A stretch of 39,987 nt of DNA, taken from positions 1 to 39,987 of IMG/VR virus record IMGVR_UViG_3300044530_000503; one strand, 5' to 3'. The position numbers and the translations under genes are program-made. Of the stretch, positions 18,851 through 20,905 are shown piece by piece. A model generated the notes under the pieces. That model was not told where the DNA came from. It saw only the letters and a list, made by a program, of their open reading frames with translations, and ran no database searches. The stretch's first letter is position 1. Every line of letters starts with the position of its first letter. This DNA is from a virus.

Positions 18851-19087
18851 TCAATTTGAGAATCCTAAAGAATCGCGCCAAGCTTGAACGCGTCGGTTTG
18901 CAATTTCAGTACGAGCAGCATTGCGAACTTTGGCTAGTTTGCTGCATGCCCAATGTTCAAGCAAAGACTTGCCCGCTTCTGCATAGCGAGGGCTGTCATG
19001 TATTACCACATAGCCGCCAACCGTTACGTCAAGGCCTACTGGGGTAAAACGACCAAAATTAGAAATGTGATAGGTAATAGTTTTCAT
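18851..19087 (-). CDS. Small protein of unknown function
   Basis: The 78-residue protein begins MKTITYHISNFGRFTPVGLD, with a beta-rich first half and a helical, basic second half (LLEHWACSKLAKVRNAARTE). ATG 19085-19087 follows ACAAGGAGTGT preceded by a T-run. It lies directly downstream of the structured RNA at 19103-19199. The first part resembles small phage proteins of the form MKTITY(x)ISxFGR, which have no known function. Confidence 0.68.
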   Translation of the reverse strand: MKTITYHISNFGRFTPVGLDVTVGGYVVIHDSPRYAEAGKSLLEHWACSKLAKVRNAARTEIANRRVQAWRDSLGFSN

Positions 19088-19091
19088 CGAG

Positions 19092-19102
19092 ACACTCCTT
19101 GT
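19092..19102 (-). promoter_or_regulatory. Repeated leader ACAAGGAGTGT, copy 3
   Basis: This is the 11-mer leader 4 nt upstream of the ATG at 19087. It abuts the U-tract (19111-19103) that ends the structured RNA, so the SD would be the first sequence after the tract. Confidence 0.75.
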
Positions 19103-19199
19103 AAAAAAAAAACACCGAGTGGGATAGCCGTACAAAGAAGTCGTGCCCAATTCCCCCTGCCAGCAACGAGCTGACAGAAGACGACGTCCCACTCAGTGT
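19103..19199 (-). ncRNA. Structured RNA ending in a U-tract (terminator or small RNA)
   Basis: In minus-strand RNA a 13-bp outer helix pairs 19199-19187 with 19124-19112, with one G-U pair and no mismatch. Inside it, 19185-19181 pairs with 19144-19140 (5 bp), and 19177-19170 with 19164-19157 (8 bp, loop UCGUU). Nine U residues follow the outer helix. This is the form of an elaborate intrinsic terminator, but it is much larger than needed. It begins 24 nt after the cleavage site of the hammerhead. No open frame of note lies inside. It could be a discrete small RNA with a ribozyme-made 5' end. Confidence 0.75.
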
Positions 19200-19210
19200 G
19201 TCGGTTGCGT

Positions 19211-19281
19211 ATTAATGCTCCCGGACGGGTGGCGGTCCCCGTTTCGGCCCCTGCCGGGGCCTCGTCAGCGGGATAATCAAC
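19211..19281 (-). ncRNA. Type I hammerhead ribozyme
   Basis: All invariant core bases are present in order on the minus strand: CUGACGA (19268-19262), GAA (19245-19243), the A-U pair 19242/19225, and C at 19224 as the cleavage nucleotide. Stem II is 19261-19256 with 19251-19246 (6 bp, loop GGCA). Stem III is 19242-19238 with 19229-19225 (5 bp, 8-nt loop). Stem I pairs 19269-19273 with 19223-19219, then a 2x2 internal loop, then 19276-19281 with 19216-19211 (two G-U pairs). Predicted cleavage is between 19224 and 19223. The UGA stop of the upstream gene (19279-19277) lies within stem I. Confidence 0.92.
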
Positions 19282-19507
19282 CAATACCGCAATCCTCAAG
19301 CTGATAGATGCTTTGAGCGTAATCGCTATCCTTAGCAGGACGGCCACAAATGTACCATCGAAGATCAGGAGAAAGTCGTTTTAATACCGATTCCACCTGC
19401 TTAAAGGCACCTTTTTCGGTCTTTGCATACGCTATAACTTTTACATTCTTCATGAACGATTGGCCGCTAACTTCCGCACTTGCTGTAACCAAAAAAGACT
19501 TGTTCAT
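19277..19507 (-). CDS. Small protein of unknown function, upstream of the ribozyme
   Basis: The 76-residue protein begins MNKSFLVTASAEVSGQSFMK and has alternating strand and helix (VKVIAYAKTEKGAFKQVESV) and a C-terminal SIYQLEDCGIG. The ATG 19505-19507 follows ACACGGAGTGT, a one-base variant of the repeated leader. Its stop codon is inside stem I of the hammerhead, so ribosomes ending translation would disturb the fold. Function is unknown. Confidence 0.68.
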   Translation of the reverse strand: MNKSFLVTASAEVSGQSFMKNVKVIAYAKTEKGAFKQVESVLKRLSPDLRWYICGRPAKDSDYAQSIYQLEDCGIG

Positions 19508-20485: not shown

Positions 20486-20905
20486 ATGAGCCGCAAGGAA
20501 GTAGCAATGACTTATAGATCAATACTTATTTGCTCAATACCGTGGCGCATCAAGCTGGGGCTAGAAGAGCTTTCCAGAAGCAAGGGCGTTAACGTCAGCG
20601 ATCAAGTCAACGAGGCGTTGATCCAGTACGTGATTCACAACAACGTAGACATGTCAAAGTATGTCGATCCGCCCCAGCAAAATAAACTGATGCGCGGACG
20701 CAAGCCGTACATGCGAAACAAGATTGCCTCCGAAGTTCTTGAACTGCTTCTTGGAGGTTCTATGCTATCCAGTGAGATTATCGAAGCGATCAAAGGGCAT
20801 TCAGTGCGATCAATCAGAAGCGTATTGACATATCTAGAACGTGCCGAACGTATATTCCGCACCAAAGAAAATGGCAAGATTCGTTGGCACGCTTCCGGTG
20901 CCTGA
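20486..20905 (+). CDS. DNA-binding regulator, the only rightward gene
   Basis: The 139-residue protein has a ribbon-helix-helix-like N-terminal part (RSILICSIPWRIKLGLEELS, then NVSDQVNEALIQYVI). It has a C-terminal winged-helix domain (about residues 80-139: IASEVLELLLGGSMLSSEII, SVRSIRSVLTYLERAERIFR). It probably represses or activates the divergent leftward genes. ATG 20486 follows GGAG with 9-nt spacing; an in-frame TTG at 20471 is an unlikely start. It is unlike classic CI repressors and has no integrase partner. Confidence 0.75.
   Translation: MSRKEVAMTYRSILICSIPWRIKLGLEELSRSKGVNVSDQVNEALIQYVIHNNVDMSKYVDPPQQNKLMRGRKPYMRNKIASEVLELLLGGSMLSSEIIEAIKGHSVRSIRSVLTYLERAERIFRTKENGKIRWHASGA

Follow-up and report, generated by a model that had tools for sequence, protein, structure and literature searches.

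What does a self-cleaving ribozyme do between two small genes of a phage? The question is raised by a 39,987-base IMG/VR phage record, analysed here at its full length (the window), in which the large reading frames, as well as those around the ribozyme, lie on the minus strand. Gene products of the window include a portal protein, a RecT-like annealing protein, a UvrD-type helicase and a tape-measure-like protein, and small genes without family matches run between the tail-side genes and RecT. The hammerhead ribozyme (HHR) is located between two of these small genes. An initial annotation had assigned it to the early region of a phage genome; the cluster of small genes that contains it is flanked by tail-side and recombination/replication genes. 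We give a probability of about 0.6 to the reading that an active type I hammerhead acts within a multi-gene phage transcript, most likely to separate two cistrons and thereby allow independent lifetimes of their RNAs.

The minus strand from 19273 to 19219 forms a complete type I HHR. Read 5' to 3', it consists of the stem I 5' strand UCCCG (19269..19273), the catalytic core CUGACGA (19262..19268), a six-base-pair stem II, GGCCCC-GGCA-GGGGCC, with a GGCA tetraloop (19246..19261), the core GAA (19243..19245), stem III, ACGGG-GACCGCCA-CCCGU, with an 8-nt loop (19225..19242), C17 (19224) and the stem I 3' strand CGGGA (19219..19223). The two strands of stem I are assigned from the sequence and a covariance model, the two core segments from the core pattern and the same model, stem II from folding and the model, and stem III, which holds A15.1-U16.1, from the pattern and the model. 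CUGANGA, GAA, A15.1-U16.1 and the NUH triplet, here GUC, are all present in type I order, and three helices are found, with loops closing stems II and III and stem I open. The initial annotation had recognized this hammerhead on the transcribed strand, with all core bases in order, and had placed its cut between 19224 and 19223; the type I core, together with established hammerhead chemistry, predicts the same site on the 3' side of C17. Hammerhead cleavage leaves a 2',3'-cyclic phosphate and a 5'-hydroxyl, and 19223 is the predicted 5'-OH end of the downstream product.

In the folding ensemble of a stretch that begins shortly before the HHR and ends at the U-run described below, pair probabilities are approximately 0.7 for stem I, 0.99 for stem II and 0.6-0.8 for stem III. 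For the longer stretch, the lowest-energy fold predicted lacks the complete hammerhead, and the ensemble is dominated by hammerhead pairs. Outside the inner five base pairs, stem I could be extended by GUUGAU/AUUAAU or, alternatively, by UUGGUUG/CAACCGA. A conserved outer stem I helix is nevertheless ruled out, as such pairing is not kept in the closest relative, contig L003. A loop-loop contact is expected for fast hammerhead cleavage at physiological Mg2+, and none was identified between loops I and II, the outer stem I being different in L003. The proposal that an internal loop in stem I faces the stem II tetraloop for tertiary contact is therefore unsupported.

How well is the motif itself supported? 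The bare, loose core pattern occurs once in the window, as against 0.15 occurrences expected in the shuffled window. A hammerhead covariance search, which had been suggested as a check, gives a divided answer: at the gathering cut-off Rfam reports no hammerhead match at the locus, and when relaxed its sole hammerhead match is RF00008 (21.5 bits, E 0.064). Rfam under-scores some phage HHRs, among them that of contig L045, which falls narrowly below threshold (33.0 vs 34) and belongs to a second group of HHR-linked RNAs discussed below; for both reasons, Rfam was dropped as sole arbiter. Because of its silence at gathering and its weak relaxed match, IMG/VR was scanned for HHRs with a pattern in which part of stem III was fixed and stem I was left free. 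This matched 112 stretches, about 100 of which were distinct and readable, the window among them; in 96 of these readable matches stem I reaches at least 4 pairs, which random flanks manage in 2%. In a scan with a stem III/stem I pattern, four matches (L127, L128, L129 and L130) were rejected as chance, having no hammerhead core upstream. A search of bacterial genomes gave no HHR with the exact stem pattern of the window HHR.

A covariance model, R1, was then built from 40 of these phage HHRs, with the window and L003 left out. Its alignment is 99.5% paired, although stem I had been required beforehand to form at least 5 pairs and the search pattern had dictated stem III, so that only the covariation in stem II is unselected. 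R1 recovers the window HHR with 42.1 bits and E 4e-13, the next-best site scoring 13.6 bits; the HHR of phage PaP3, as a positive control, scores 23.7 bits (E 4e-6).

The related phages point in the same direction. Many proteins are common to L003 and the window, with identities of mostly 64-100%, and L003 carries the same HHR, in whose stem II a C-G to U-A and a G-C to G-U change distinguish the two contigs with pairing kept in both. Contigs L043, L069, L104 and L113 were recognized via their HHRs only, and share proteins with the window at up to 74% identity. Among the protein relatives, L003 and L043/G008 carry one HHR each, L069/G009 and L113/G011 two each, and G010 three plus a degenerate fourth, all at junctions of small genes; in L139 (G010:C1:27685-28346), successive small genes are separated by the three intact hammerheads and the degenerate fourth. 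The three intact G010 copies have different stem III sequences, all fully paired (covariation), and the stem II of one is identical to that of the window. One HHR of L113 has A in place of C at the cleavage site, and A at this position makes a permitted NUH triplet. Because relatives carry one to three each, with stem covariation, HHRs are, as judged from sequence comparison, a repeated feature of the lineage of the window phage, a recurrence absent from the initial annotation. Searches with the portal, a tail-region protein and the primase/helicase found no close named phage, and bacterial genomes gave no relative of the one protein tried.

These comparisons make it very improbable that the motif is a relic or a chance match that no longer cleaves. 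The degenerate fourth G010 copy shows that such motifs can decay, but the window core is intact and 94% conserved, with pair-keeping changes, while the adjacent coding DNA has diverged, and an E value of 4e-13 would hardly be expected of chance.

The position of the HHR relative to its neighbours suggests what it might be for. The upstream small gene (19277..19507, minus strand; 76 aa), defined by its reading frame, has no family match and shows no homology to its positional counterpart in L003. Its UGA stop codon (19279-19277) is separated by 8 nt from the CUGACGA core. The initial annotation had noted that stem I includes this stop; the placement is real, and is in fact general, but the codon lies in the non-conserved outer part of stem I and outside the conserved inner 5 bp. 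Of 96 phage HHRs, almost all of them on other IMG/VR contigs, 74 have the stop codon of an upstream frame of at least 60 codons within -12 to +3 nt of the CUGA core, as against a mean of 5 and a maximum of 11 for random positions on the same strands in 200 rounds; as the 96 come from one pattern and some are closely related, the count is not one of independent events. For 12 of the 96, the UGA inside the core itself serves as the stop. The next start codons called are mostly about 19-55 nt past the cut, by a crude start caller that took wrong starts in the window and L003. What had been a remark on one stop codon thus becomes a general rule; neither for it nor for the HHR-linked RNAs discussed below did we find a description in the open-licence papers covered by the literature search.

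With the stop placed in this way, cutting puts the stop codon and the ribosome-binding site on separate, correct products, and the simplest reading of the placement is that cleavage leaves each on its correct half. The rule would mean that the cut is positioned so as to keep both genes usable, and it makes cistron separation a testable function. Cleavage in the cell is inferred, as are its effects on stability and expression. After passage of RNA polymerase through the HHR, the transcript would cut itself at 19224/19223. The upstream product would retain its complete gene with the stop codon, and its 3' end would be the ribozyme fold, carrying a 2',3'-cyclic phosphate; the downstream product would begin with a 5'-hydroxyl and a conserved folded leader, followed by the ribosome-binding site of the next gene. 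The folded RNA may then protect or control the downstream message.

The same placement could be read in terms of translation, as the initial annotation had done. A ribosome terminating at 19279-19277 would cover stem I and CUGANGA and delay the cut, so that heavy upstream translation would keep both genes on one RNA. Here and in the 74 of 96, the distance between stop and core is within a ribosome footprint, and the core UGA serving as stop in 12 fits as well, but the same placement is also expected from genome compactness and from the need for the 5' product to retain the stop. Moreover, the upstream gene differs in the nearest relative. Ribosome gating is possible, being compatible with the stop placement and not required by it, and we regard it as unlikely.

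Between the cut and the next gene lies a further conserved RNA, which the initial annotation had not included. The downstream small gene (18851..19087, minus strand; 78 aa), defined by its reading frame and by comparison, has no family match; it is conserved in L003, and searches of IMG/VR for wider copies of it gave L003 only. The 136 nt from the cut to this gene comprise 24 nt of stem I strand and linker, a structured segment, a U-run and a ACAAGGAGUG start region. The linker, GCAUUAAUACGCAACCGAC (19200..19218, minus strand), is 94% identical in L003 (compared over 19203-19219), and with the CGG of the released stem I strand it is predicted to form a small hairpin in the products of both contigs. 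It is followed on the same strand by a structured RNA of about 90 nt (19112..19199) with a long closing helix and two hairpins, defined by folding and comparison with L003. A run of 10 U (19103..19112) abuts the closing helix and is either terminator-like or part of the translation start region. The ribosome-binding site ACAAGGAGUG (19093..19102), common to neighbouring small genes, follows.

From the cut to the U-run, the predicted product has a folding z of -6.26 in the window and -5.57 in L003. Between the two, the HHR core and the linker are each 94% identical and the structured segment (19113-19202) is 91% identical, whereas the downstream gene is about 65% identical, with 45% at third codon positions among those aligned, and the upstream gene is unrelated to the one in the same place in L003. 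The HHR and the RNA outpace the flanking genes in identity, and the conserved unit is thus HHR plus RNA. All 34 of 34 consensus pairs are kept in the window and L003, with 4 one-sided and 0 two-sided changes; covariation is weak because one close relative alone carries the RNA. A model of the structured RNA, R2, found no copy in other relatives of the window phage, and IMG/VR pattern scans for it returned L003 only. ARAGORN called no tRNA for the RNA downstream of the HHR. A mir-9256 match there was rejected, as it is sub-threshold and reflects the closing helix only.

This RNA is also the basis of the main rival to cistron separation with a folded leader, namely that the locus makes an independently acting small RNA, about 120 nt long (from 19223 to about 19104), with its 5' end generated by the ribozyme and its 3' end by the helix and U-run, the downstream gene being expressed via read-through only. 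The block from the stem I 5' strand to the U-run is more conserved than either flanking gene, its fold is strong (z -6.3 and -5.6), and the closing helix adjoins the U-run in both contigs. As for termination, a helix and a U-run are present at 19199-19103, but the loop is large and branched, and a simple scan calls no terminator. Furthermore, a similar U-run with ACAAGGAGUG occurs at 20119-20097 without a closing helix in front, so that the U-run is possibly a part of the translation start region. In addition, only two contigs were found to carry the RNA. A discrete small RNA is, on balance, a real but clearly less probable reading than cistron separation.

It gains some further ground from a second HHR-RNA pair. 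In contigs L017, L020, L045, L077, L111 and L119, an HHR is followed directly by a different, unrelated conserved folded RNA (GACACGCACCGA...GGUGUAUCGGUGACG..., ending near UUAAACC); L017 equals L111 across this stretch and the two were counted once. L143 has the second folded RNA with an apparent 3' half of an HHR at the edge of the locus. An Rfam search of L017, L045, L077, L119 and L124 gave just tRNAs, HHRs and sub-threshold matches, with no family for the second RNA. Some contigs bearing this pair also contain tRNA clusters. It is conceivable, if rather doubtful, that some phage hammerheads are built-in 5'-end makers for small structured RNAs; the unit of HHR, ~90-nt RNA and U-run would then yield a functional RNA without host processing enzymes, and the second pair would be another case. 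In the conserved HHR and RNA block, specifically, the ribozyme may mature a phage RNA, either in place of separating cistrons or in addition to it.

HHRs flanking genes in phages have already been reported (Perreault 2011; PMC3088659), and the window ribozyme is therefore of a known kind. Three clustered HHR arrangements are reported there to self-cleave while being transcribed in vitro, and one of the three does so in E. coli as well; moreover, the PaP3 HHR is listed there among active core variants (PMC3088659). What prokaryotic hammerheads do biologically has been called an open question, and they are persistently linked to phage genomes (PMC6155905). The window HHR has the core, helix order and cleavage site of the type I HHRs of phages and prophages (Rfam clan CL00010; PMC3088659), which likewise flank individual small genes and are clustered in some relatives, but it differs from them in scoring below gathering in Rfam and in having a conserved folded RNA between the cut and the next gene. 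The hammerhead of Pseudomonas phage PaP3 (L144:44112-44035) matches the same R1 model, lies among same-strand small ORFs and directly follows the end of orf67; unlike the window HHR, it has a longer stem III region and a lower R1 score. Theta ribozymes beside gut-phage tRNAs (PMC10879173) are similar in that a small self-cleaving ribozyme adjoins a structured phage RNA, suggesting RNA maturation, but they have an HDV-like fold and cut at the 3' end of the tRNA, whereas the window ribozyme is a hammerhead with its predicted cut on the 5' side of the RNA. The folded RNA after the HHR, rather than the ribozyme, is the less ordinary part of the locus.

Finally, several other features of the window were observed. 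The contig ends, 1-259 and 39729-39987, are 98.5% identical over 259 bases (4 mismatches), as would fit a near-complete, terminally redundant or circular genome. A reading frame of about 132 aa (20507-20905, plus strand) with no Pfam match lies opposite the beginning of the run of small genes and may encode a regulator at a divergent promoter. Similar hairpins around ACATGTCGG...CGGCATGTTTT precede two small genes (19565-19538 and 18780-18742, minus strand), the second hairpin being followed directly by ACAAGGAGTG. In addition, a TET-associated glycosyltransferase-like gene (PF20691; 7749-8684, minus strand) suggests modified DNA bases in the window phage.
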